In this document: in pieces, positions 6,278-40,701 of the stretch | Layout of the letters: each line of letters starts with the position of its first letter | How positions within the stretch are numbered: the first letter of the stretch is position 1 | Source of the DNA: Mycolicibacterium sp. MU0053 | Lineage (GTDB): Bacteria; Actinomycetota; Actinomycetes; Mycobacteriales; Mycobacteriaceae | NCBI RefSeq assembly: GCF_963378095.1 | Contig: NZ_OY726397.1 | Span: 1-64,000, forward strand | Reading direction: 5' to 3' | Length of the DNA: 64,000 nucleotides | The notes under the pieces: model-generated | What the model was told of the DNA's origin: nothing | Seen by the model: only the letters and a program-made list of their open reading frames with translations | The model's database searches: none | Program-made: the position numbers and the translations under genes

Positions 6278-8344
<2,067 letters not shown>

Positions 8345-8392
8345 CGCGCACAACACCTTTGACTCGAACATGGCAGAACAGATGAGGATCAG

Positions 8393-12169
<3,777 letters not shown>

Positions 12170-27239: not shown

Positions 27240-27430
27240 TTGTGTTTTGTGGACAAGCTGTGAGTGAACCGCCCTGCGCGGGGCCGCGGGATATCCAGCT
27301 CCAAGTCCCCATGTGGATCGTTGCATGATGCGACGTCGTCCTGACCCTCAGTGTTGCGCGCTACTTGTCGGCCAGGTCCTATATACAGTTCCGTTCAGTT
27401 CATGACGATGAAGTTGAGGGGGCCTCGACC

Positions 27431-28885
27431 GTGATCACCGGTGAGTTGAAGAGCAAGGTCGACCGGGTCTGGGACGCATTCTGGTCCGGCGGCATCTCCA
27501 ACCCGCTGGAGGTCATCGAGCAGATCACTTACCTGCTTTTCATCCGACGCCTCGATGACCTGGAGACTCTGGAGGAGCGCAAAGCGCGCCTCGGCGCAGC
27601 CGGTTTGCTCCGTTTCGGTTCAGACCAGCAAGAGCTCCGGTGGTCGCGCTTCAAGAATGAGGAGCCGGCTGTCATGTTCGCGACGGTCGGGGAAAAGGTC
27701 TTCCCGTTCCTGCGGACCCTCGGTGGCGACGGCTCGACCTACGGCGAACACATGAAGGACGCCCGGTTCACTATCCCGACGCCGCAGCTGTTGTCCCGGG
27801 TGGTCGACTTGCTTGACGACATTCCGATGAACGATCGCGATACCAACGGCGACCTCTATGAGTACTTGCTGTCGAAGATCGCGAGCGCCGGCGTCAACGG
27901 CCAGTTCCGTACGCCGCGGCACATCATCAAGTTGATGGTCGACATGATGGCGCCGAAGCCGACCGACGAGATCTGCGACCCGGCATCCGGTACGGCAGGC
28001 TTCCTCGTTGCCGCGTCCGAGTACATCCGCGGGCAGCACCCGTCAGTACTCACCGATGCCGCACAGCGCAAGCACTTCCACGCCAGCATGTTTCACGGCT
28101 ACGACTTCGACAACACCATGCTCCGGATCGCTAGCATGAATATGCTGATGCACGGCATCGAATCTCCGGACATTCGCTACCGGGACTCGTTGTCGGAGGG
28201 TGCTTCTGAGGACGCCGAAAAGTACACGCTGATTCTCGCCAATCCGCCGTTTGCTGGCTCGCTCGACTACGAGTCGACATCGAAAGATCTACAGCGGGTA
28301 GTAAAGACGAAAAAAACAGAGTTGCTGTTCGTGGCTTTGTTCCTCAAGTTGTTGAAACCTGGTGGGCGCGCGGCCGTGGTCGTGCCAGATGGCGTGTTGT
28401 TCCAGTCTTCGAAGGCGCACAAAGAACTTCGGCAAAGTCTGGTTGAAGATCAGAAGCTGGATGGGGTTGTGAAACTTCCGTCAGGGGTGTTCAAGCCTTA
28501 CTCGGGGGTCTCGACGGCAATCCTGCTGTTTACGAAGACAAACTCGGGTGGCACCGACAGTGTGTGGTTCTACGAAGTGGCTGCCGACGGGTACTCGCTC
28601 GACGATAAACGGAATGCGGTGGAGGCAAATGACCTCCCTGACGTGTTGGCTCGGTGGAGCGCACGCGCAGGGTCCGAACGTGAGCGAGCTCGCACGGACC
28701 GGTCGTTCTGCGTCTCAAAGAAGGACATCGTCGCCCAGGGTTATGACTTATCGCTCAACAGGTACAGGGAAAGTGTTCATGACGCAATCCAGCACCGACC
28801 GCCACTGGAGATCGTCGCCGAGATCGAGAAATTAGAGCGGGAAATTGCCGCGGGCTTAGTCGAGTTGAAGGCAATGCTGACATGA
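27431..28885 (+). CDS. hsdM: Type I restriction-modification methyltransferase subunit HsdM
   Basis: N6-adenine DNA methyltransferase subunit of a type I restriction system. It has an N-terminal HsdM_N helical domain (about 5-135), the AdoMet motif DPASGTAGF starting at D183, and the catalytic NPPF at N271-F274. The GTG at 27431 lies 8 nt after GAGGGGG, so it is preferred to an in-frame upstream start at 27365; it gives 484 residues. It overlaps hsdS by 4 nt. Codon use is visibly more A/T-rich than in the core genes, consistent with transfer. Confidence 0.95.
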   Translation: MITGELKSKVDRVWDAFWSGGISNPLEVIEQITYLLFIRRLDDLETLEERKARLGAAGLLRFGSDQQELRWSRFKNEEPAVMFATVGEKVFPFLRTLGGDGSTYGEHMKDARFTIPTPQLLSRVVDLLDDIPMNDRDTNGDLYEYLLSKIASAGVNGQFRTPRHIIKLMVDMMAPKPTDEICDPASGTAGFLVAASEYIRGQHPSVLTDAAQRKHFHASMFHGYDFDNTMLRIASMNMLMHGIESPDIRYRDSLSEGASEDAEKYTLILANPPFAGSLDYESTSKDLQRVVKTKKTELLFVALFLKLLKPGGRAAVVVPDGVLFQSSKAHKELRQSLVEDQKLDGVVKLPSGVFKPYSGVSTAILLFTKTNSGGTDSVWFYEVAADGYSLDDKRNAVEANDLPDVLARWSARAGSERERARTDRSFCVSKKDIVAQGYDLSLNRYRESVHDAIQHRPPLEIVAEIEKLEREIAAGLVELKAMLT

Positions 28886-30072
28886 CGTGGCCGACCGTGT
28901 CGTTAGGTGACTGCGGCGAGATCCAAGGCGGACTCCAGGTAACAAGCAAGCGCGATTCTTTACCGCTATCTAGGCCGTATCTTCGGGTAGCAAATGTTTA
29001 TCGCGGTCGCCTCGATTTAACCGAGATCAAGACAATCTGCGCAACTCAGACCGAAATCGACCGGACTCGGCTCGAACCCGGAGACCTACTCTTCGTGGAG
29101 GGGCACGGTAACCCCGAAGAAGTAGGCCGAGTGGCCATGTGGAACGGCTCAGTTCCAGACTGCGTGCACCAAAATCACCTAATTCGCGTCCGACTGGATC
29201 GCAACGTTCTGATACCCGAGTTCGCGGCCAGGTGGTTTAATTCCCCGGCCGGGGCCAGTCATTTCCGACGGGCTGGAAAGACAACATCCGGCCTTAATAC
29301 CATCAGCACCCATACAGTTCGATCCGCCGTCACTCCGCTGCCACCACTTGACGAGCAGCGCCGTATCGCCGCGATCCTCGACCGGGTCGATGAATTGGAC
29401 CTGTCGCGTCGGGCAGTCGACGAGCGGATCGACGAAGTGCCTACCGCCATATTTTTCGAAATGTTTGGCGACCCAGCCGCCGCGTCGGCTCGCGATACCG
29501 AGCCACTGGGTGAACTTGTGACTCTCCGTGGTGGCGGGACTCCGTCAAAGGCGAACCCCGCTAATTGGAAGGGCGAACTTCCCTGGTTCAGTCCTAAAGA
29601 CCTCAAGCGCAAGTTTCTATTCGATTCAATAGACCACGTATCAGAAACGGTCCTCGACTCGACCTCGTTGAAGGCAATCCCGCGCGACACGATACTGATC
29701 GTTGTACGCGGCATGATCCTTGCTCACACTGTCCCCATCTCGATTGTCAAGACGAGGTGCACGATCAACCAAGATCTAAAGGCGCTGATCCCACGTGTCG
29801 AAATCGACCCGCTATTCCTCCATACCGCGCTTGCTATACAACACGCGCGGATCCTTGACAGCGTAAGCACGGCAGCGCACGGTACGAAACGCCTCGACGT
29901 TGAGGACCTGAAAGCCGTCCGTATCCCCCGACCTACCGCTGGTGCACAGACGGAGTTCATCGAACGGGTCAATCAGGTTGAGGACATCGCGCGCGCCGCT
30001 GCATCTCAAGCCAAAACTATCAACGAGCTCTTCAGGTCCCTCCAATCCCGCGCGTTCTCCGGTCAGCTGTGA
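28882..30072 (+). CDS. hsdS: Type I restriction-modification specificity subunit HsdS
   Basis: Target-recognition subunit that sets the bipartite DNA sequence for HsdM and HsdR. The 396 residues contain two target-recognition domains, about 1-150 and 206-350. The central conserved helix region starts near LPPLDEQRRIAAILDRVDEL. The C-terminal conserved helix region includes AQTEFIERVNQVEDIARA. The ATG overlaps the hsdM stop (ATGA). G+C is lower than in the flanks, as is usual for target-recognition domains. Specificity cannot be predicted from sequence alone. Confidence 0.94.
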   Translation: MTWPTVSLGDCGEIQGGLQVTSKRDSLPLSRPYLRVANVYRGRLDLTEIKTICATQTEIDRTRLEPGDLLFVEGHGNPEEVGRVAMWNGSVPDCVHQNHLIRVRLDRNVLIPEFAARWFNSPAGASHFRRAGKTTSGLNTISTHTVRSAVTPLPPLDEQRRIAAILDRVDELDLSRRAVDERIDEVPTAIFFEMFGDPAAASARDTEPLGELVTLRGGGTPSKANPANWKGELPWFSPKDLKRKFLFDSIDHVSETVLDSTSLKAIPRDTILIVVRGMILAHTVPISIVKTRCTINQDLKALIPRVEIDPLFLHTALAIQHARILDSVSTAAHGTKRLDVEDLKAVRIPRPTAGAQTEFIERVNQVEDIARAAASQAKTINELFRSLQSRAFSGQL

Positions 30073-30081
30073 GGTAACGGC

Positions 30082-33000
30082 ATGTCGAACTTCGCCTTCC
30101 TGCGCACGGTCAATTGGTCGGAGATGTACTCCGACTGCGCGCGAGCAGAGAGTTATGCCACCACCGACCCACGTTCGGCATGCTTCTACAGCCGCCGGAC
30201 CGTGGAGCTATTGGTGGACTATCTCTATGACGTTTTGGCGCTGACGATTCCGTACAAGAACGATCTCGCCGCCAAGATCAATGACCCGGCGTTTAAGTCG
30301 AAAGTCGGTCTGGGGATCGCTAACAAGCTCAATCTGATTCGTAAGCTCGGAAATACTGCTGTCCACGAGGCACAGCCGATACCGCCCAGGGCCGCCCTCG
30401 ATACGCTGCGTGAACTGCACCACGTGATGCTGTGGGCTGCCTTCCGGTATTCGACCAACCCGCAACCGGTTCCGATGAAGGCCGCCTTCGATCCAAAGAT
30501 GGCGGTCAAGGCTGCACCGCTGACCCGGCAGGAAGTCGCTCAGCTCGCGGCGAAGTTCGCCGCTCAGGACGAAGCGCATGCCAAGGCGCTGGCGGAGAAG
30601 GACGAACTTGCCGCGACGCAGGCCACTGAGATCAAAGCGTTGCGCGAGGCGGTCGAGCAGGCCCAGGCGGCCAACCAGCAGCCCGATGACCGCGATTACA
30701 ACGAGGCCGAGACCCGAGATCGGTTCATCGACGTTATGCTCGCCGAAGCCGGCTGGCCCCTGACAGACACCAAGGACCGCGAGTACCCGGTCACCGGCAT
30801 GCCCAATGGCGACGGCAAGGGGTTCGTCGACTACGTCCTGTGGGGTGCAGACGGTCTCCCGTTGGCGATCGTGGAGGCCAAACGAACGGCTAAAAGCCCG
30901 CAGGTCGGCCAGCAGCAGGCCAAGCTGTACGCGGACTGCCTTGAGAAGATGACAGGGCGTCGGCCGGTAATCATCTACACCAACGGTTTCGAGCACTGGA
31001 TCTGGGATGACACCGGCGGCTACCCTCCGCGGGATATCCAGGGTTTCTACACCCGGGACGAGCTGGAGCTCCTAATCCAACGCCGCGACACCCGCAAGCC
31101 GTTGATCGACATGCCGATCGACTCGGCCATCGTAGAACGGCACTATCAACACCGTGCGATCCGCGCGATCGACGACGCATTCACCGAAAAGCAGCGGGAG
31201 GCCCTGCTGGTGATGGCAACAGGCTCGGGGAAGACCCGTACCGTGATCGCGTTGGTGAAGCAGCTGATGGAGGCCAACTGGGTCAAACGGGTCCTTTTCC
31301 TCGCCGACCGCACTGCACTGGTGACCCAAGCCGCCAACGCGTTCAAGGCACACCTGCCCGATGCCACCACTGTGAACCTAGTGACCGAGAAGATCACCGA
31401 CGGCCGGGTGTATGTGTGCACCTACCCGACGATGATGAACCTCATCAACGAGACCGACTCTGGCATTAGGAAATTCGGACCCGGCTACTTTGACCTCGTC
31501 GTCATTGACGAAGCCCACCGGTCGGTCTACCAGAAGTATGGTGCCATCTTCGACTGGTACGACTCTCTGCTCGTCGGCCTGACCGCCACCCCCAAAGACG
31601 AAGTCGACCACAACACCTACCGACTGTTCCACCTCGAAGACGGCGTACCCACGGATGCTTACAGCCTCGACGACGCCGTCAGGGAAGGCTTCCTGGTACC
31701 TGCTGTCGGGATCTCCGTGGGCACCAAATTCCTGCGCCAGGGCATCCGCTACGCCGATCTCTCCGAAGAGGAGAAGGACGACTGGGACGCCCTGGACTGG
31801 GGCGAGGGTGACCCGCCGGATGAGGTGGGCGCCGAGGAGATCAACCGGTTCCTATTCAACGAGGACACCGTCGACAAGGTGCTCGCCGAACTGATGAGCA
31901 AGGGCCACCGTGTAGCTGAAGGCGACCGGCTCGCCAAGACCATCATCTTCGCCAAGAACCAGGCGCACGCTGAGTTCATCGCGCGACGCTTTGACGTCCA
32001 ATATCCGCAATACGCAGGAACATTCGCCCGCGTCATCACCCACAGCACTGCCTATGCCCAATCGCTGATCGACGACTTCTCCGTCACCGACAAGGTCCCA
32101 CACATCGCCATATCGGTCGACATGCTCGACACCGGAATCGATGTCCCCGACGTCGTCAACCTCGTGTTCTTCAAGCTGGTCCGGTCCAAGACCAAGTTCT
32201 GGCAGATGATCGGCCGCGGTACCCGCCTACGGCCCGATCTATTCGGACCCGGCAAGGACAAGCAGAACTTCTACGTCTTCGACTTCTGCGGCAACCTCGA
32301 GTTCTTCAGCCAGGATTTGCCGGGATCGGAAGGCTCGTTCCAGAAGTCCTTGAACCAGCGGCTTTTCGAAACGCGCCTCGGGCTGATCACCGCGATCGAC
32401 CACGCCTGGCCGCCCTCGGAGCCAGAACCCGAAGAGGGGCAGGGCAGCGAGACCGAACGAGGATTGCGGGTCGATGTCGCGTGGTCGCTCCATCGGGCCG
32501 TCACGGGGATGAACCTGGACAACTTCCTGGTGCGACCACACCGCAGGCTGGTCGAGCAATACTCGCAATGGCCGGCGTGGAGATCGCTGACGCCCGACGT
32601 CGCCGGAGATGTGGCCGAACACCTGGCCGGGCTGCCGTCAGCCCACAAGGACGACGACGAGGACGCCAAGCGCTTCGACATGCTCGTCTTGCGCCGTCAA
32701 CTCGCCCAACTCGAAGGCGACGCCGTCGCGGCCGAACGGCTACGCGAACAGATCCAGAACATCGCGACCGGCCTGCTGAGCCAGACAGCGATCCCGTCGG
32801 TGAAGGCACAGGAGCGGACTCTCGAAGAGGTCGGCGGGGATGAGTGGTGGGTCGACGTCACTCTGCCGATGCTCGAATCCGCGCGGCGCAAGCTACGCGG
32901 TTTGCTCCGGTTCCTGGAGAAGGTGAAACGGAACCAGGTCTACACCGACTTCGCCGACGAACTCAGCGAAGCCACCCTCGTTGATCTTCCAGGGATCACG

Positions 33001-33495
33001 CCCGGCACCAACTGGGAACGCTTCCAGGCCAAGGCCCGCGCGTATCTCAGACAGCACCAGGATCACGTTGCGCTGCAACGGTTACGACGCAATAAGCCCT
33101 TAACCCCCGATGATCTCGCTTCGTTGGAGCAGATGCTTATCGAGAGCGGTACGGGAGAGCAAGCCGACATTGAACTGGCGAAGGAGCAGTCGCATGGCCT
33201 GGGGTTGTTCGTGCGGTCACTAGTCGGGCTGGACCGCGAAGCCGCCGCCGAAGCCTTCGGCGCATACCTGGACGGCACGAAGTTCAATACCGACCAGATC
33301 CGCTTCGTGAACCTCATTGTCACCGAACTGACAGCCAACGGCTTCATGGAACCCGTGCGGCTCTACGAGTCGCCATACATCGACCACGCACCTACAGGCC
33401 CCGACGACGTGTTCGGCGAGGCCGATGTCGACACGATTGTTTCGATTCTGAATATGGTGCGGGATAACGCCGTGCCCGACGACGGAGCAGCATGA
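30082..33495 (+). CDS. hsdR: Type I restriction endonuclease subunit HsdR
   Basis: ATP-dependent translocase and nuclease of the type I system, 1137 residues. The N-terminus (about 15-115) resembles the DUF4145/HEPN-like domain often fused to HsdR, followed by a coiled coil (about 150-205). The PD-(D/E)XK nuclease has D250 and E265-A-K267. Superfamily 2 helicase motifs are Walker A ATGSGKT with K384, DEAH at 476-479, TATP and the motif VI segment QMIGRGTRLR. All catalytic residues look intact. It is 9 bp after hsdS with GAGG before ATG 30082, and its stop overlaps a micro-ORF. Confidence 0.95.
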   Translation: MSNFAFLRTVNWSEMYSDCARAESYATTDPRSACFYSRRTVELLVDYLYDVLALTIPYKNDLAAKINDPAFKSKVGLGIANKLNLIRKLGNTAVHEAQPIPPRAALDTLRELHHVMLWAAFRYSTNPQPVPMKAAFDPKMAVKAAPLTRQEVAQLAAKFAAQDEAHAKALAEKDELAATQATEIKALREAVEQAQAANQQPDDRDYNEAETRDRFIDVMLAEAGWPLTDTKDREYPVTGMPNGDGKGFVDYVLWGADGLPLAIVEAKRTAKSPQVGQQQAKLYADCLEKMTGRRPVIIYTNGFEHWIWDDTGGYPPRDIQGFYTRDELELLIQRRDTRKPLIDMPIDSAIVERHYQHRAIRAIDDAFTEKQREALLVMATGSGKTRTVIALVKQLMEANWVKRVLFLADRTALVTQAANAFKAHLPDATTVNLVTEKITDGRVYVCTYPTMMNLINETDSGIRKFGPGYFDLVVIDEAHRSVYQKYGAIFDWYDSLLVGLTATPKDEVDHNTYRLFHLEDGVPTDAYSLDDAVREGFLVPAVGISVGTKFLRQGIRYADLSEEEKDDWDALDWGEGDPPDEVGAEEINRFLFNEDTVDKVLAELMSKGHRVAEGDRLAKTIIFAKNQAHAEFIARRFDVQYPQYAGTFARVITHSTAYAQSLIDDFSVTDKVPHIAISVDMLDTGIDVPDVVNLVFFKLVRSKTKFWQMIGRGTRLRPDLFGPGKDKQNFYVFDFCGNLEFFSQDLPGSEGSFQKSLNQRLFETRLGLITAIDHAWPPSEPEPEEGQGSETERGLRVDVAWSLHRAVTGMNLDNFLVRPHRRLVEQYSQWPAWRSLTPDVAGDVAEHLAGLPSAHKDDDEDAKRFDMLVLRRQLAQLEGDAVAAERLREQIQNIATGLLSQTAIPSVKAQERTLEEVGGDEWWVDVTLPMLESARRKLRGLLRFLEKVKRNQVYTDFADELSEATLVDLPGITPGTNWERFQAKARAYLRQHQDHVALQRLRRNKPLTPDDLASLEQMLIESGTGEQADIELAKEQSHGLGLFVRSLVGLDREAAAEAFGAYLDGTKFNTDQIRFVNLIVTELTANGFMEPVRLYESPYIDHAPTGPDDVFGEADVDTIVSILNMVRDNAVPDDGAA

Positions 33496-33575
33496 ATTCC
33501 GACCGGCCGGCTGACGCCGACATCGCCCACAGCGACCAAAGTCATGAGGTCGTAGACGAGAGTGCTGATGTCTGA
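33492..33575 (+). CDS. Putative 27-residue micro-ORF coupled to hsdR
   Basis: Its ATG overlaps the hsdR stop (ATGA) and its TGA lies 8 bp inside the next gene, so it bridges the two by translational coupling. The peptide is acidic (DADIAHSDQSHEVVDESADV at the C-terminus). I do not recognise it. It may be a real small protein or only a reinitiation bridge that couples translation of the 784-residue protein to hsdR. Confidence 0.3.
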   Translation: MNSDRPADADIAHSDQSHEVVDESADV

Positions 33576-35922
33576 TCAAAGCGCGTACTTCAACGAGGTG
33601 GCTCATATGCAGCTTCGTGCACCACGCGTTGTCCTCGTCGTGCCGGTCACCGACGACTGGCACCGATTAGCAATGCAAGGGCTTCACCTAGTGACTACAT
33701 CTTGGGCTGGTGCCGGGTTCGTAGTCGTGCCGACAGAGCGAGGTGTCGTACACCCGGCGATTCTTGCTTCTCTTCGGGAGTACGACCCCGACTGTGTCCT
33801 TGCGCCTCCAGCTGAAGCGCTTCCCGCCGACTTGGCGGACGGTGTGACGCGCGCACAGGAAGCAATTTCGGCAATCTGCTCCAACTATCGATCACCTCTG
33901 CTGAACCCGCTGGAAGTCGCGAATCCTCGGTTCTCCGCGCTCTGGAACATTTGGTTCTCAACCGCTGGTCACCCGAGCTCCGGTGATCCTGTGGACGTCT
34001 CAACTGTCAGTGACGTTCACGACGGCGAGACCTCGATCGGTGCCAATCCAGCTCTTGAAGGCGCCCTTGGCCTAGCGGCAGCAAGTCGCTGGGGGTTAAG
34101 TGAAACGCCGAACGACGACACTGCAGACGTCGAAGACTCCGTCAAGAAGGCAGCAGTGCGGCGGCTCTCGTCACACGAATACCAAGCTGGGGGTCTTCCA
34201 GGCATTGGCACAGCGGCCACTTTCGAGGGTAGGTACGAGACCTATCTTTCGCGTACGCTCGTCGGTTTGGATGGAGCCCAATCGTACGGTCCTCGACGGT
34301 CCGACGCGCTGATCGTCATGGGTGACAAACCGTCGGACTTCGCTCTGGCTATGGTTTGGGACCGCACCTACCGATACGGAATCTGGGTCCCCGAAGAGTG
34401 GTGGGCGGACACCGAACTCCGTCCCCACGTCATAGCGGGAATCGACGAACTGGTGCGGCACGCATCGACACAGTTGAAAAGAGTTCTGTTCACATCCACC
34501 ACTCTCGAAGAGAGCGAAATCGCAGCCCGCGCAAAACAATGGCGCGACCGCACGAGCCTGATCCTCGAAAAGGACCTAGATGACAAGTGGATGGTGGTGG
34601 GTGCCGACGCCCTAGCGCCTTCGCGGTACTGGAAGGTCCACTACGTCCTGAAGGAGAACATCTCTCACGAATGGTCGACTGCTGTCACGACAGAGGCTGG
34701 CACTGCGAATCTCTCAATGCTCCCGCCCCTTCCTCGGATCGGGGTGCCGGGTCTTGAGCCGCTCGAGCAGTCAACATGCTGGCACGTGGACGTTTCTCTC
34801 CGCGGTTACGACCTTCCCGTCTCGACCGCTTTGCCTGAAGATGCGTTGCTGGTCGAAACAACGGAGGCCCAGGCCACTCGTGTTCGTGCGGGCAGAGGGG
34901 GGATTTCATACCAGGCGCATCGAACCGACTTCATTCCATCAGGAGCTTCACTTTCGCAATCACTCGCTCGTCCGTTGCTCAGCTTCCCGTCGTTGATCGA
35001 CTGGGCGAACTCACGCGCAAGTACTCACGCGATGTCCGTTCGGCTTTCGACTGCAGGCACGCAGGCGAACGTGCTGGCTTCAATGATGGGCAGCCGAGAG
35101 GCGTTGACTGATCTCGTTGCCAGTGATTTCTTGGCTGCTCTCCTCGCATTCAATCGGTCGCGATCTACGAAAGACGATTACCCCGGGGGCGAGGGATGCG
35201 TAGTCAATTCGGAGGGATATTTGCACTTTTCGGGCATATGCGCGATTGCGGGTGTCACGGACACTGCCGAAGCCAGAGACAGGGTAGATGGGTTACTCAA
35301 AGCGGGCGTTCTCAGGCGAGGACTGCTTACAAAGTGCCTCTTGTGCCAACATTCTGCATTTGTCCATGTGGACGACCTGGCTTCGATGATCCGATGCGAC
35401 CGCTGCCTTGGAGTAAACGCCCTCGAGCGTCAACTGTGGCTACATCCGGTCGAAGAACCCACCTGGTATTACGATCTTCATCCCATTGCCCGAAAGCTGC
35501 TCCAGGACAATGGAGACGTTCCATTGCTACTTTCTAAGTACCTACGGTCTACTTCTCAGCGCAGTTACACCGACGCAGCCGAGTTTGAGCTATTGGGACC
35601 GGAGGGAGACCCCGTATGCGAGACCGATCTACTCGCGCTTACCGATCGGAGGCTATCAATGGCGGAAGCGAAGTCTAGCAACACATTTGGGAGTCGAAAA
35701 CAACGTATGAGCGGTGCCCGAAAAAGAGTTACCGCCGCGCACGCATTGCATGTCGATGAGATTGTCCTTGCGACTACGGCCGCTCAGTGGGAGGGGGCCA
35801 CGATCGAAGCGATGAAGACGGCAATGTTTGAACGTGATTGGCGAATGGGGCGAACACCCGATCTGCGAATAGTCTGTAGCCTTGGCGGAGCGGTAACTGA
35901 CGACACACAACGAGTGCGTTGA
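33568..35922 (+). CDS. Hypothetical zinc-ribbon protein with putative PD-(D/E)XK nuclease domain, hsd-linked
   Basis: 784-residue protein that I do not recognise as a named family. The C-terminal third carries a zinc-ribbon-like pair C590-x2-C593 and C610-x2-C613, followed by a segment with D687 in ETDLLAL and E700-A-K702 in MAEAK, which has the spacing of a PD-(D/E)XK nuclease core. The N-terminal 550 residues show no motif that I can name. ATG 33568 lies 5 nt after GAGAG; a GTG at 33562 is the alternative. It is coupled to hsdR through the micro-ORF, and base use is A/T-rich for this genome, so a defence role is an inference from context. Confidence 0.75.
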   Translation: MSDQSAYFNEVAHMQLRAPRVVLVVPVTDDWHRLAMQGLHLVTTSWAGAGFVVVPTERGVVHPAILASLREYDPDCVLAPPAEALPADLADGVTRAQEAISAICSNYRSPLLNPLEVANPRFSALWNIWFSTAGHPSSGDPVDVSTVSDVHDGETSIGANPALEGALGLAAASRWGLSETPNDDTADVEDSVKKAAVRRLSSHEYQAGGLPGIGTAATFEGRYETYLSRTLVGLDGAQSYGPRRSDALIVMGDKPSDFALAMVWDRTYRYGIWVPEEWWADTELRPHVIAGIDELVRHASTQLKRVLFTSTTLEESEIAARAKQWRDRTSLILEKDLDDKWMVVGADALAPSRYWKVHYVLKENISHEWSTAVTTEAGTANLSMLPPLPRIGVPGLEPLEQSTCWHVDVSLRGYDLPVSTALPEDALLVETTEAQATRVRAGRGGISYQAHRTDFIPSGASLSQSLARPLLSFPSLIDWANSRASTHAMSVRLSTAGTQANVLASMMGSREALTDLVASDFLAALLAFNRSRSTKDDYPGGEGCVVNSEGYLHFSGICAIAGVTDTAEARDRVDGLLKAGVLRRGLLTKCLLCQHSAFVHVDDLASMIRCDRCLGVNALERQLWLHPVEEPTWYYDLHPIARKLLQDNGDVPLLLSKYLRSTSQRSYTDAAEFELLGPEGDPVCETDLLALTDRRLSMAEAKSSNTFGSRKQRMSGARKRVTAAHALHVDEIVLATTAAQWEGATIEAMKTAMFERDWRMGRTPDLRIVCSLGGAVTDDTQRVR

Positions 35923-36337: not shown

Positions 36338-37297
36338 TTACCGAAACGCAGTGGCGCCACCAACCGCTTGGAACGCTTGCCGAAACTTGTCCAATCGGTT
36401 GATGATCCAGTCCTGCATGGCTGGCCACTGGTCAGTGTCTTCGACCGAAGTGAAAGTAGACGTGGTGAAGATAGCGGCGCCTTTCTTGCCGGGTTTATCA
36501 TCCCATTCGGCGCTTTCGCCTAACGCGGCCTCAAAGAGTTCCTTTTGTGCGGAGATCCGGTCGAAATTTCGTTCGTTGACCTCCGGTTTGGGACTGTTGA
36601 AGTAGAGCTGGGCCCGAAGTCCCGTCGTGGCGAACGAAACGTTGTACACGATAGCGCCGTAACCCGTGGAGAAGTCATACCAGGAACTGGGCGTAGTGGC
36701 TTTGGCCCGTGTCCAGGTGGGATGTTCGGAAGCGATGCGGGACAGGAGCAACTCCCAAAACTCCCAGTACAGCTTTGAGCGCTTGGACATTTCGGATGCG
36801 CCCGTCGTCGCCGCTCTGACACGTTTTCCCCAATCATTGGGCTGAGCAACCAGTTTGAAGTTGGGAGCTGGTTCGGAGTCGCCGATCTTGACCACCTGGA
36901 TCTCTACTCCGAAGAACCGCACGTCGGGACCGGTGTGCTCATTGAGCCAGTCCAACGCTGCTCGGTGCTCGGCACGGAACCCCGTCGTGATCCAGACGAC
37001 TGTCCGCGGTTCGGTGCCCGCCGCGTACGTCAAGATCTGACCGAGGTGACCATGGTCGGATTGGTCGAGTTGATTCTCTACGATCACCACACTGTCATCA
37101 GCGAGGTCGCGACCTAAAAGGTCGAGCGAGAATCCCCCCACCGGATGTTCAGCCACCTCGAGTTCCAGCTCCATCCCGAGCAAGTCTGAGAGGACGTCGA
37201 CATTGCCGAGAAGCCAGGGCGTGAACGCGTGAGCTTCGTGTGGCCAGACGTCGCGTGGATGCACTTCGGCGAGCCGACCGAGTCGCAGTTCGGACAT
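36338..37297 (-). CDS. DUF4268 family putative nuclease
   Basis: 319-residue protein. The N-terminal half has a nuclease-like core with D59 in GGFSLDLLGRD and E74-N-Q76 in VIVENQ, an ExQ variant of PD-(D/E)XK seen in several repair and defence nucleases. The C-terminal half (about 165-300) matches the DUF4268 pattern, with KLYWEFWELLL and a GYGAIVYNVSF strand. The ATG follows AAAGGG. It is oriented against the hsd operon on the far side of the IS remnant. An antiphage or DNA-degradation role is inferred from fold and neighbourhood. Confidence 0.75.
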   Translation of the reverse strand: MSELRLGRLAEVHPRDVWPHEAHAFTPWLLGNVDVLSDLLGMELELEVAEHPVGGFSLDLLGRDLADDSVVIVENQLDQSDHGHLGQILTYAAGTEPRTVVWITTGFRAEHRAALDWLNEHTGPDVRFFGVEIQVVKIGDSEPAPNFKLVAQPNDWGKRVRAATTGASEMSKRSKLYWEFWELLLSRIASEHPTWTRAKATTPSSWYDFSTGYGAIVYNVSFATTGLRAQLYFNSPKPEVNERNFDRISAQKELFEAALGESAEWDDKPGKKGAAIFTTSTFTSVEDTDQWPAMQDWIINRLDKFRQAFQAVGGATAFR

Positions 37298-37683
37298 GGT
37301 GCCCTTTCGGTGCCTTGTTTGGGACGAAGGCAGTTTGGTCGTACGTTACCCAACGCGCAACGGCTGAAGAGCTTGCCTTCAAGGAGTACGTTTTTCGGCA
37401 ACACGATGGATGGTGCGTAGCCCAGCCTCAGAAGGCTGCCCATTTGTGAGACGTCGAGGTGACCCCGGTTCGATATCACCTGGATCGACACTGACCGATG
37501 GGTGACCTCGCCCTGTGGGGCTCGTTTCCCAAGCCCACACGTGAACTCACAGCACACACAGCCGCCGTTGGGTACCGTGGTCATCGAGGTTGAGTTCACA
37601 GCTTCGTCATCTGAGGTCCGCGCGGGGGTCCGCCGGTGTCACCGCAGGGAAATCCGCCACCCCGCCGATTGACGAGGAAAAGT
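37298..37683. other. Gene-poor gap at the right edge of the island
   Basis: 386 bp without a convincing gene. The left part must contain the promoter of the reverse-strand DUF4268 gene. A short forward frame at 37240-37449 ending QPQKAAHL has no start signal and overlaps the DUF4268 gene, so it is not called. The right part leads into the phosphatase gene. I see no tRNA repeat or attachment-site copy here. Confidence 0.5.
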
Positions 37684-38934
37684 TTGACCATCGATCCCGA
37701 ACTTGACCGCGCCCCACCCACCCAGACCGGTGATCAGCTGGCCCACGAGGTGGCGACGGTGCTGGGCGGTTCCCTCAATCCGCGGCGCGCCGCGCTGCAA
37801 CTGGTCAACCTGATCCAACTAAACATGGCTGACTGGGCCATGGTCGTGATTCCGGACCGGCAGACCGGCGCGATGATGCTGGTGGGGGACGCGGCGCCGA
37901 CCGGCGTCCGGATTGGTCGCGCTGGACTGACGGGACGCCCACTGGACCGGGTGCTGAGTGCCGGCGGCTATGAACACATCGAGGGCAGCGATCTATCCGG
38001 CCTGGTGCCGGCGGAGCCATTCCTGCAGGCGGCGGTCGCGTTGGCCCCGGCCGAGGCGGTGGGCGTCGCGCTGACGGCGCGGGGCGTCACATTCGGTGCG
38101 CTGGTGCTGCTGCGGCAGGCAGACGCCGGATTCACCGCTGCGGAGATCGGCGCAGCGCAGCGCGTTGCCGACCGGGCGGCGCTGGCCCTGGACTCGGCGC
38201 GGATGTATCAGCAGCAAACGCACGTCGCGGCGGTGCTGCAGCAGAGCCTGCGGCCGCCGACCCTGCCCAGCATTCCCGGGCTGCGGCTGGCCGCCTGCTA
38301 CCGGCCCGCGGCCGAGAACCTCGACATCGGTGGCGACTTCTACGACGTCCTCGGCGGCGACGACGACTGGCTGGTCGCGATCGGCGACGTGTGCGGCAAG
38401 GGCGTCGAAGCCGCGGCCCTGACTGGGCAGGCGCGCCAAAGTATCCGCACCGCAGCACATTTCGATCGGGATCCAGCGGCGGTTCTGCGCGTGACCAACT
38501 CGGTGTTGTACAACCCGGCGTCGACGCAGTTTGTGACGATGTTGTGTGCGAGACTGCGCCCCGACGGCACCGAGGTCCGGGTGGACCTCGCCACTGCGGG
38601 ACATCCGCCGCCGCTGGTCTTGCGCGCCGACGGCCGCGTGGAGCAGCTCGCGGTGTATGGCACAGCAGCCGCTCTGGTCGCCGAAGTCCAATACGGCGCA
38701 ATAACTTTCCGCCTCAGCCGCGGCGACACCATGCTCATGTTCACCGACGGTGTCGACGAGGCCTGGGGAAGCGAAGGCCAGTACGGGCTCGAGCGACTGC
38801 AGAAGATGCTGCCCGCCTACGCCGGGGCGTCTCCCGAGGTGGTCTGCGAGGCCGTGGAGCAGGACGTGATGGAGTACCTCGACGGCACTGCCCACGACGA
38901 CATCGCTTTGCTGGCGGTGACGTGCGGATCTTAG
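37684..38934 (+). CDS. GAF-domain PP2C/SpoIIE (RsbU-like) protein phosphatase
   Basis: 416-residue soluble phosphatase. A GAF-like sensor domain (about 15-175) precedes a SpoIIE/PP2C domain (about 190-412) with metal-binding motifs GGDFYDV, GDVCGKG, MFTDGVDE and the terminal HDDIALLAV. Family members dephosphorylate anti-sigma-factor antagonists in partner-switching stress pathways. The TTG at 37684 is preferred because GAGG lies 6 nt upstream; a GTG at 37636 would add 16 residues. Its 3' end overlaps the cobalamin-binding gene by 13 nt. No anti-sigma or antagonist gene is nearby. Confidence 0.88.
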   Translation: MTIDPELDRAPPTQTGDQLAHEVATVLGGSLNPRRAALQLVNLIQLNMADWAMVVIPDRQTGAMMLVGDAAPTGVRIGRAGLTGRPLDRVLSAGGYEHIEGSDLSGLVPAEPFLQAAVALAPAEAVGVALTARGVTFGALVLLRQADAGFTAAEIGAAQRVADRAALALDSARMYQQQTHVAAVLQQSLRPPTLPSIPGLRLAACYRPAAENLDIGGDFYDVLGGDDDWLVAIGDVCGKGVEAAALTGQARQSIRTAAHFDRDPAAVLRVTNSVLYNPASTQFVTMLCARLRPDGTEVRVDLATAGHPPPLVLRADGRVEQLAVYGTAAALVAEVQYGAITFRLSRGDTMLMFTDGVDEAWGSEGQYGLERLQKMLPAYAGASPEVVCEAVEQDVMEYLDGTAHDDIALLAVTCGS

Positions 38935-39947
38935 CGGCGGCACCGGTGCTGCGCGAGTACGAGGCGGCCCTGGCCGAATCGGATCGGCCCAGAATCGTTG
39001 CGCTCGTGCAGGACCTCCTTGACGATGGGGTCGCGCCGGCGACCGTGCTGACCGACGTCGTGGCGGCCTCGCAACGCGCCATCGGCCAGCGGTGGCAGCG
39101 TGGCGAATGGACCGTCGCGCAGGAGCACGCGGCGACGGCAATGGCCATGGCCGCTACCGAAGCGGTCACTCAGCGCGTCGCAGACGTGCCGCTGACCCGC
39201 GGCCACGTCCTGGTCACCTGCGCCGAACGGGAGTGGCATTGGTTGCCCGCCGCCATCATCGGCTGTGTCCTGCGCGCTGCGGGCTGGCGGGTCACATCGT
39301 TGGGACCGGCGACGTCCCCGCTGCGGCTCAGCCAATACATCCAGGACATCGGGCCCGAGGCGGTCGCGGTCAGCTGTTCGGTGCTGGGAGCACTGCCGAC
39401 GACACGGAGATTCATCGAGGCGAGCACGTCTGCCGGCGTGCCCGTGGTGGTCGGCGGCCCGGCTTTCGGCTCGGACGCGGTGCGCGCGCAGGCGCTCGGA
39501 GCAACCGCGTGGGCCCCGGATGCCTCGGGCGCGCTCACGGCGATGGAAACCCTGCCGGTGGTGGCCTCGGCGGTGCCGCCACTGCCGCGGGCCCCCGCCC
39601 AGGAACAGCGTGCCCTCGAGCTGGCGCATGCCGACCTCGTCGCGCGTGTCGTGCGGCGGTGGAGCGTAACATCCAGTGCTGCAACAGATCCCGCCCAGAC
39701 CGCCCTGCGTGCAGTGGCGCGCGATGCGGCACCTCAAACCCTGCATGCGGTGGGAGCCGCACTGTTGACGGGCGACGTGCGACCGGTGTCCGAGACCGCA
39801 CTGTGGATGGGCGAGCTGTTGGCTCACCGCAAGGTGGACTCCCAGGCGGCCGTACACGAACTTGCCGCGGTGATCGGTACGACGCTGACGGACTATCCGC
39901 TCAGCGTAGAGCTCGTGCGAGCGAACTTCCGGCTGGACCAGGGCTGA
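38922..39947 (+). CDS. Cobalamin-binding protein, CarH/LitR-like sensor without DNA-binding domain
   Basis: 341 residues. Residues 1-90 form a B12-binding_2 helical module with W58-x9-E68-H69, the Wx9EH signature of adenosylcobalamin photoreceptors. A B12-binding Rossmann domain follows (about 94-215). Its axial-ligand motif reads E104-W-H106-W-L-P109, keeping Glu and His of E-x-H-x-x-G but with Pro for Gly. The C-terminal 120 residues are helical and unassigned. No MerR domain is present. The GTG start lies inside the phosphatase gene, so the two are translationally coupled and probably one signalling unit. Confidence 0.85.
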   Translation: MRILAAAPVLREYEAALAESDRPRIVALVQDLLDDGVAPATVLTDVVAASQRAIGQRWQRGEWTVAQEHAATAMAMAATEAVTQRVADVPLTRGHVLVTCAEREWHWLPAAIIGCVLRAAGWRVTSLGPATSPLRLSQYIQDIGPEAVAVSCSVLGALPTTRRFIEASTSAGVPVVVGGPAFGSDAVRAQALGATAWAPDASGALTAMETLPVVASAVPPLPRAPAQEQRALELAHADLVARVVRRWSVTSSAATDPAQTALRAVARDAAPQTLHAVGAALLTGDVRPVSETALWMGELLAHRKVDSQAAVHELAAVIGTTLTDYPLSVELVRANFRLDQG

Positions 39948-39954
39948 TTTCGCA

Positions 39955-40701
39955 TCACCGCGCTGTGCTCCCACCGGGTTGACTCTCCACCCACTGGCGA
40001 GCCTGCTCGGCGGCCCGGCCCAGCGCGCACCCTTCGCCGAAGTACGACGCCACAGCACCCACCGCGGGCAACATCGCGAGATAGCGGAAGGGCGTGCGCG
40101 GATGCGGACGCTTGGCGAGCACGTCGCTGATGGCGTCGAACAACCCCACCAGGCGCCACAGCGCCTTCGCGATGCCCAGCGGCGTGCGGGAGATCGGCTC
40201 CGCCTCCTGCGGCTCGCTGACCTCCGTGTCGGTCAGATCGCGGTCGCACAACACCTCGGCCAGCATCCGAGCCTGGGTATCGGGGTCGGTGACGCCGAGT
40301 TCGCGGGCCACCGCGCACAGCACGATGGCTTGGTTGACGAAACCCAGCAGGTCCTGAATCGGCAGGCCGCGCGCCACGGCCCCGAGCACGCCCGGGAACG
40401 CGACCACCACGGTGTTCAGCGCACCGATGCGCCGAACCCACCAGCGGATACGGGCGTCGACGTCGAGATCTTCCCATCCGCGCGTGCCCGGCACGTCTGC
40501 CGCGTTGAGTACCCAAGAGAGCCCGTCGGCCACCTTGTCCAGCGGCCCGGCGTCAGGGTCGACATCGCGTTGCTTCAGTCCCAACGGGTCGGTGCCCCAC
40601 AGGATGTCGAGCAGCGGGTTGATGATCCGAACCGCGCGCCGCAACGCGTCTTCGACGTCGGAGTCGCTGATCGTCACCGTGGGGCCAGGCAAGAGATTCA
40701 C
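39955..40701 (-). CDS. Hypothetical protein, function unknown
   Basis: 248 residues from GTG 40701, or 268 if the upstream GTG at 40761 is used; neither has a clear ribosome binding site. The sequence has several amphipathic or hydrophobic stretches (NTVVVAFPGVLGAVARG and a C-terminal YLAMLPAVGAVASYFGEG), so a membrane-associated protein is possible. I do not recognise a family. It ends 8 bp from the convergent cobalamin-binding gene and may share an operon with the small reverse-strand gene upstream. Confidence 0.65.
   Translation of the reverse strand: MNLLPGPTVTISDSDVEDALRRAVRIINPLLDILWGTDPLGLKQRDVDPDAGPLDKVADGLSWVLNAADVPGTRGWEDLDVDARIRWWVRRIGALNTVVVAFPGVLGAVARGLPIQDLLGFVNQAIVLCAVARELGVTDPDTQARMLAEVLCDRDLTDTEVSEPQEAEPISRTPLGIAKALWRLVGLFDAISDVLAKRPHPRTPFRYLAMLPAVGAVASYFGEGCALGRAAEQARQWVESQPGGSTAR

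Follow-up and report, generated by a model that had tools for sequence, protein, structure and literature searches.

In RsbU/RsbP–RsbV–RsbW–SigB/SigF partner switching, inputs are RsbT, PAS or RsbQ. In photocobilins, a CarH-type adenosylcobalamin (AdoCbl) module precedes a photoglobin domain able to hold biliverdin; in the photocobilin–diguanylate cyclase fusion AbDPcob, light activates the cyclase, on which the photocobilin domain also acts in trans (PMC10979010). Zhang et al. call the function of stand-alone photocobilins 'less clear'; for SasPcob from Saccharothrix syringae, interaction with STAS, SpoIIE and PP2C proteins was proposed on the basis of interaction-network and neighbourhood analysis (PMC10979010). 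In M. smegmatis, RsbW holds SigF, RsfA and RsfB bind RsbW, and loss of sigF removes the carotenoid pigment (PMC4694148). A term search of the main text of a light study in M. kansasii returned no photoreceptor, B12, cobalamin, phosphatase or SpoIIE (PMC9861118).

Here we describe overlapping genes for a SpoIIE/PP2C phosphatase and a predicted stand-alone photocobilin in the window, the stretch of DNA comprising bases 1–64,000 of a 5.45-Mb single-contig genome. SasPcob (8J2W/8J2X) shares with the window protein its domain order, length, AdoCbl-pocket residues, Trp296, the proline replacing the motif glycine and the stand-alone arrangement; the window protein differs by Ala at Asp270, Arg at His137 and His at Asp276, and its binding of biliverdin is uncertain. 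AbDPcob (8J2Y) has a similar core that also lacks Asp270 and exemplifies light control of an enzyme, but this enzyme is a fused cyclase, whereas the putative partner in the window is a separate phosphatase gene. CarH/LitR have in common with it the AdoCbl-binding light-sensor core with Wx9EH and ExH, whereas the window protein lacks the MerR DNA-binding domain and carries an extra photoglobin domain. The SpoIIE-type catalytic domain is shared with the RsbU/RsbP systems and with the phosphatase domain of Rv1364c (3KE6), and loci related to the window's contain STAS, kinase and sigma genes as those systems do; the window's input, however, would be a separate photocobilin, and the partners are unlinked in its genome.

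A first-pass annotation of the window had considered a cobalamin photoreceptor acting through a SpoIIE-type phosphatase to be new. The idea of this pairing is not new, as the STAS/SpoIIE/PP2C link had been put forward for SasPcob (Zhang et al. 2024, PMC10979010). Near-invariance of the pairing, the sigma-factor cassettes and the clade lacking Asp270 were not found in the literature searched.

Overlapping genes for a SpoIIE-type phosphatase and a predicted photocobilin

The features of the locus are collected in Table 1. The phosphatase frame opens with TTG at 37684, which, by eye, agrees with where the two nearest relatives begin in the alignment, and closes with TAG at 38932–38934; an alternative in-frame GTG lies upstream at 37636. 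Since the frame of the B12 protein opens with GTG at 38922, the 13-nt overlap of the first-pass annotation is confirmed, and the two genes may be translationally coupled through it. The motifs that it had listed, W58-x9-E68-H69 and E104-x-H106 with Pro for the last Gly, are likewise present (E104-W-H106-W-L-P109), and this observation of motifs and overlap is real and far beyond chance.

Table 1 Features of the phosphatase–photocobilin locus in window coordinates
Feature	Position	Strand	Basis
Conserved upstream block, GGGTA then GAGGTTGAGTTCACAGCTTCGTCATC	37570..37611	+	Five-way alignment
GAF-SpoIIE/PP2C phosphatase gene, 416 aa	37684..38934	+	ORF; Pfam SpoIIE E 3.2e-42
GAF-like domain, phosphatase residues 45-169	37816..38190	+	PF01590 E 2.5e-4, 22.0 bits vs cut-off 22.4
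SpoIIE/PP2C catalytic domain with D218, D235, D355, D406	38359..38922	+	Pfam and alignment
Photocobilin-family B12 protein gene, 341 aa	38922..39947	+	phmmer to 8J2W/8J2X (residues 10-327) and 8J2Y (17-311)
13-nt overlap of PP2C and B12 genes	38922..38934	+	Read directly from sequence
Four-helix B12-binding_2 domain with W58, E68, H69 (adenosyl pocket)	38949..39164	+	Pfam and alignments
Rossmann B12-binding domain: E104, H106 (lower Co ligand by homology), R135 (SasPcob H137 position)	39201..39521	+	
C-terminal photoglobin-type domain: D268, A269 (SasPcob D270), H275 (D276), W295 (W296)	39603..39929	+	Alignments

The SpoIIE match of the phosphatase is strong and its GAF match falls just under the Pfam cut-off. 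The catalytic aspartates, which we take to be metal-site residues, are kept in 78–79 of 79 aligned rows, the window included, and the protein combines the catalytic domain and the conserved aspartates of SpoIIE/RsbU-type PP2C phosphatases.

Pfam assigns two domains to the B12 protein, B12-binding_2 (residues 10–81, whole-protein E = 5.6e-14) and B12-binding (residues 94–200, E = 4.2e-16), and no MerR domain, as the first-pass annotation had stated. In phmmer comparisons with the PDB, photocobilins match over nearly the full length (SasPcob 8J2X, E = 5.9e-48, and 8J2W, E = 6.6e-48; AbPcob 8J2Y, E = 5.6e-36), with CarH far behind (E = 1e-6). The protein contains the four-helix and Rossmann B12 module of photocobilins with W..EH and E/DxH, its alignment crosses the photoglobin domain in 8J2W/8J2X and, less completely, in 8J2Y, and W295 corresponds to Trp296, which contacts both corrin and bilin. 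Asp270 is replaced by Ala269 in the 183-row alignment; the pairwise phmmer alignment would pair D268 with Asp270 via a one-residue gap, but the multiple alignment does not. Because Asp270 is absent from AbPcob too, it is not strictly defining. Judged by its sequence, the B12 protein belongs to the photocobilin family, in its stand-alone form.

The label 'CarH-like', taken narrowly, is not supported: the earlier domain reading recognised the B12 motifs but missed the photoglobin-type domain at residues about 228–338, and membership of CarH was rejected because the MerR domain is absent (52 bits for the NCBIfam CarH model against a cut-off of 400). The proline in E-x-H-x-x-P, which looked like a broken motif, is shared with SasPcob and typical of the photocobilin family (149 of 158 distinct sequences). 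The best named matches of the protein are from Mycobacterium and Mycolicibacterium. The source names of several photocobilin proteins ('methanogenic corrinoid protein MtbC1', 'light-induced MerR regulator') are misleading.

Conservation of the pairing in actinobacteria

The conserved co-occurrence that had been proposed as a check was examined in two overlapping sets of loci. In the first, comprising 114 loci given to tblastn and excluding the window itself, a PP2C gene was scored when it had the same orientation and lay no more than 500 bases upstream of the matched part; this was the case in 106 of 114. Of the eight loci scored as misses, L037 and L041 are contig ends, L038 and L039 hold other B12 proteins, and L163–L166 contain no member of the family. 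In all 106 paired loci the type of PP2C matches the photocobilin clade (see below), and two of them (G158, G308) have a photocobilin match that is broken into two parts. The second set comprises the best 80 of at least 505 confirmed relatives, and here 79 of 80 loci have the PP2C gene upstream, 78 by profile and one (L207, with a truncated photocobilin missed by the profile) by reading; the sole exception, L221, begins at a contig edge. Genera represented include Mycobacterium, Umezawaea, Actinokineospora, Amycolatopsis, Kribbella, Micromonospora, Pseudonocardia, Streptomyces and Nocardiopsis.

Among these best 80 of at least 505 relatives, a start codon overlapping the PP2C stop by 4 nt is found in 24 of 29 clade I loci, and one giving exactly the 13-nt overlap exists in 25 of 40 clade II loci; a PP2C–photocobilin fusion was sought and not found. 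The pairing is near-invariant across many actinobacteria. The suggested tie between an AdoCbl-photoreceptor-type protein and a SpoIIE-type phosphatase is supported.

Two photocobilin clades differ at the biliverdin site

Asp270 holds biliverdin in SasPcob, and AbPcob, which lacks it, shows about 20% biliverdin occupancy and keeps its red-light response (PMC10979010). To match that paper, SasPcob residue numbers are given as chain numbering plus 5, checked on seven residues. Removal of AbPcob from the 183-row alignment leaves 182 rows with 158 distinct sequences, some genes being present in two collections. The positions W61, E71, H72, E106, H108 and W296 are identical in all 158; AbPcob, left out of this count, has Asp at position 106. 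Position 270 is Asp in 85 sequences, Glu in 1 and another residue (Val, Ala, Thr and others) in 72. The 86 sequences with Asp or Glu mostly have His at position 137 (80) and Asp or Glu at 276 (84), and the other 72 mostly have Arg at 137 (59), His at 276 (60) and Asp at 269 (58). The window protein sits in the latter set (A269, R135, H275, D268).

In an unrooted 95-row tree, a branch with support of 88/85 separates the rows with Asp270 (Glu in one case) from the rest, and the window's clade of 39 rows has support of 100/100. Such a clade, with an intact AdoCbl core, no Asp270 and conserved Arg and His nearby, was not found in the literature searched. Photocobilins of neither main clade occur, paired with PP2C, in six Micromonospora loci (L211, L213, L216, L217, L223, L226) and in Nocardioides and kin (L210, L212, L236). 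Their residue at position 270 is Gly, Ala, His or Tyr, and these loci have no STAS or kinase matches nearby.

STAS, kinase and sigma-factor genes in related loci

Neighbouring genes were counted in stretches mostly extending 6 kb to each side of the pair, for the best 80 of at least 505 relatives. STAS genes are found nearby in 23 of 29 clade I, 28 of 40 clade II and 1 of 10 neither-clade loci; the corresponding counts for HATPase genes are 6/29, 17/40 and 0/10. Seven loci of the window's clade, six from Actinokineospora (L192, L194, L195, L198, L203, L206) and one from Amycolatopsis (L197), carry in one direction the series RsbW-type kinase, sigma factor, STAS, HATPase kinase, PP2C, photocobilin and STAS. 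Pfam finds sigma regions 2, 3 and 4 in all seven and confirms the leading RsbW-type kinase in three. The sigma factor of L198 shares 51% identity over 239 residues with the SigF-like factor of the window genome, the gene of which follows an RsbW-type gene and is unlinked to the PP2C–photocobilin pair. With both sigma factors as tblastn queries, matches were obtained in 8 of 81 loci (the best-80 set plus a plasmid locus), namely the seven cassettes and Streptomyces L244, and in 1 of 114 loci of the other set. The L244 match (L244:8790-9503) is 44% identical to the window genome's sigma factor and lies downstream of a clade I PP2C–photocobilin–STAS series.

By annotation, confirmed with Pfam, an S. 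xanthophaeus plasmid carries STAS–ATPase–STAS beside PP2C–photocobilin–STAS, and four mycobacterial loci (L172, L173, L180, L201) have a divergent STAS–HATPase–STAS set near the pair. The window's pair has no STAS, kinase or sigma gene beside it and no STAS or HATPase gene within about 6 kb. Given the STAS, RsbW-type and sometimes sigma-factor genes of related loci, the possible partner-switching module of the first-pass annotation is a natural interpretation. In five loci (L169, L176, L179, L184, L187), the PP2C–photocobilin pair is directly followed by an approximately 1375-aa open frame (about 7033–11190) with PP2C-like and RsbW-type kinase parts, and then by a STAS gene.

Unlinked partner candidates and cofactor supply

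The window genome has two SpoIIE genes, a STAS–kinase pair near 4.882 Mb and a kinase–sigma pair near 3.803 Mb. By homology, we presume these STAS, kinase and sigma proteins to be RsbV, RsbW and SigF. The STAS and kinase proteins of the mycobacterial cassettes match best the unlinked STAS–kinase pair, with up to 55% and 53% identity, in a comparison limited to three STAS and two kinase proteins from the window genome; for 13 of the 20 kinase matches the STAS-linked kinase was the best fit, and for 7 it was the sigma-linked kinase. Within the genus, the RsbW-type kinase family occurs in 205 of 297 genomes, that is, in 87 of 90 with a photocobilin and in 118 of 207 others, where the statistics ignore kinship and the co-occurrence is partly built in wherever the genes are neighbours. 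Because 118 genomes have kinase homologues and no photocobilin, the partner assignment is not specific.

A CobO-type adenosyltransferase is present in the window genome. Haem oxygenase of the PF01126 family was not found in it, and an MhuD-like protein was (best E = 4.6e-53 to MhuD PDB chains and 5.1e-52 to a mycobilin-producing haem oxygenase chain; the ABM family was searched in the window genome only), so that the bilin to be expected there is mycobilin rather than biliverdin. PF01126 occurs in 100 of 297 genomes of the genus. It is present in 6 of the 46 genomes with clade II, 18 of the 57 with clade I and 79 of the 207 that have neither; the 13 genomes holding both clades are entered in both counts, and the weak matches G122, G191, G207 and G280 had been dropped beforehand. 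The window's clade could conceivably be a second photocobilin class, its bilin pocket rebuilt (no Asp270, Arg and His instead) for another chromophore, here maybe mycobilin, with light coupled through PP2C and RsbV/RsbW to a SigF-type factor. We regard this as doubtful. Since 39 of the 57 clade I genomes also have no PF01126, the bilin argument is weak and a change of chromophore is not proven.

Proposed mechanism and alternatives

Our preferred reading, to which we assign a probability of about 0.65, is that an AdoCbl photosensor gates an RsbU-like phosphatase by contact in partner switching on a SigF-type sigma factor. In the dark, a photocobilin dimer would bind AdoCbl with His106 to the cobalt and the adenosyl group packed by Trp58, Glu68 and His69. 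Light, mainly green, would break the Co–C bond and change the photocobilin assembly, and direct contact would relay this change to the GAF-PP2C phosphatase, much as RsbT acts on RsbU. The phosphatase would then dephosphorylate an RsbV-type STAS protein, which would bind the RsbW-type kinase, releasing the SigF-type sigma factor. In this reading we infer cofactor binding, light response, phosphatase contact and phosphatase target. The sigma factors found in the cassettes raised our estimate from 0.60 and slightly lowered two of the alternatives; light or B12 state probably controls a sigma-factor switch through the pair.

That the B12 protein instead senses AdoCbl supply or the cobalamin redox state, rather than light, and reports to the phosphatase is rather unlikely. 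The cobalamin-pocket residues are indeed invariant, and red-light coupling is doubtful because Asp270, which binds biliverdin, is missing from the window's clade; the Trp/Glu-His and Trp296 residues of light-responsive photocobilins are nevertheless all retained, and AdoCbl held in this way is photolabile in known relatives. We also consider it unlikely that the photocobilin's target is a STAS protein, in a stressosome-like scaffold, and that the phosphatase is co-transcribed as part of the same switch without being targeted directly. In favour of this, the gene immediately downstream of the photocobilin encodes a STAS protein in 22 of 29 clade I loci and 9 of 40 clade II loci (best 80 of at least 505), but the near-invariant neighbour is the phosphatase, and no STAS gene adjoins the pair in the window. 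A mere relic of gene neighbourhood, with no shared function, would agree with the lack of fusions in the best-80 set but is very improbable for a pair kept in 106/114 and 79/80 loci, in two deep clades and many genera, with frames that often overlap; the three other B12-binding genes of the window genome, moreover, are not near either of its two SpoIIE genes. A corrinoid shuttle for methyl transfer, suggested by the MtbC1 source names and by NCBIfam corrinoid matches (MtbC/MtaC) that all score far below cut-off, is scarcely credible and was rejected, as photocobilins match far better, the photoglobin domain is extra and the constant neighbour is PP2C.

If gating of the phosphatase by the photocobilin is true, many mycobacteria and other actinobacteria would have a light (or B12) input to sigma-factor partner switching with a phosphatase output, and PP2C would be the naturally paired effector of stand-alone photocobilins. 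The Actinokineospora run, which joins the sensor and the phosphatase to antagonists, kinases and a sigma factor, would be a compact system. The pigment loss of M. smegmatis without sigF (PMC4694148) makes a light-to-SigF route directly testable.

Upstream sequence and flanking genes

Allowing up to 3 mismatches, a 26-mer of the conserved upstream block has a single occurrence in the genome. A SigF-type promoter in 37301–37690 was rejected, as GGGTA at 37570 has no −35 element at the right distance from it; the consensus used also appears in PMC4694148. No sigma-70 promoter-like site was found in 37300–40200, and a riboswitch or other Rfam element in 37200–40300 was rejected, the one match being sub-threshold and on the other strand. 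Upstream lies a type I restriction-modification set at 27365–33495 (hsdM 27365–28885, hsdS 28882–30072, hsdR 30082–33495), adjoined by a gene for a 786-aa protein (33562–35922, +) that neither Pfam nor PADLOC matches. A DUF4268 protein (36338–37297, −), encoded between the restriction and phosphatase genes, matches the candidate defence family PDC-S11 with E = 4e-113.
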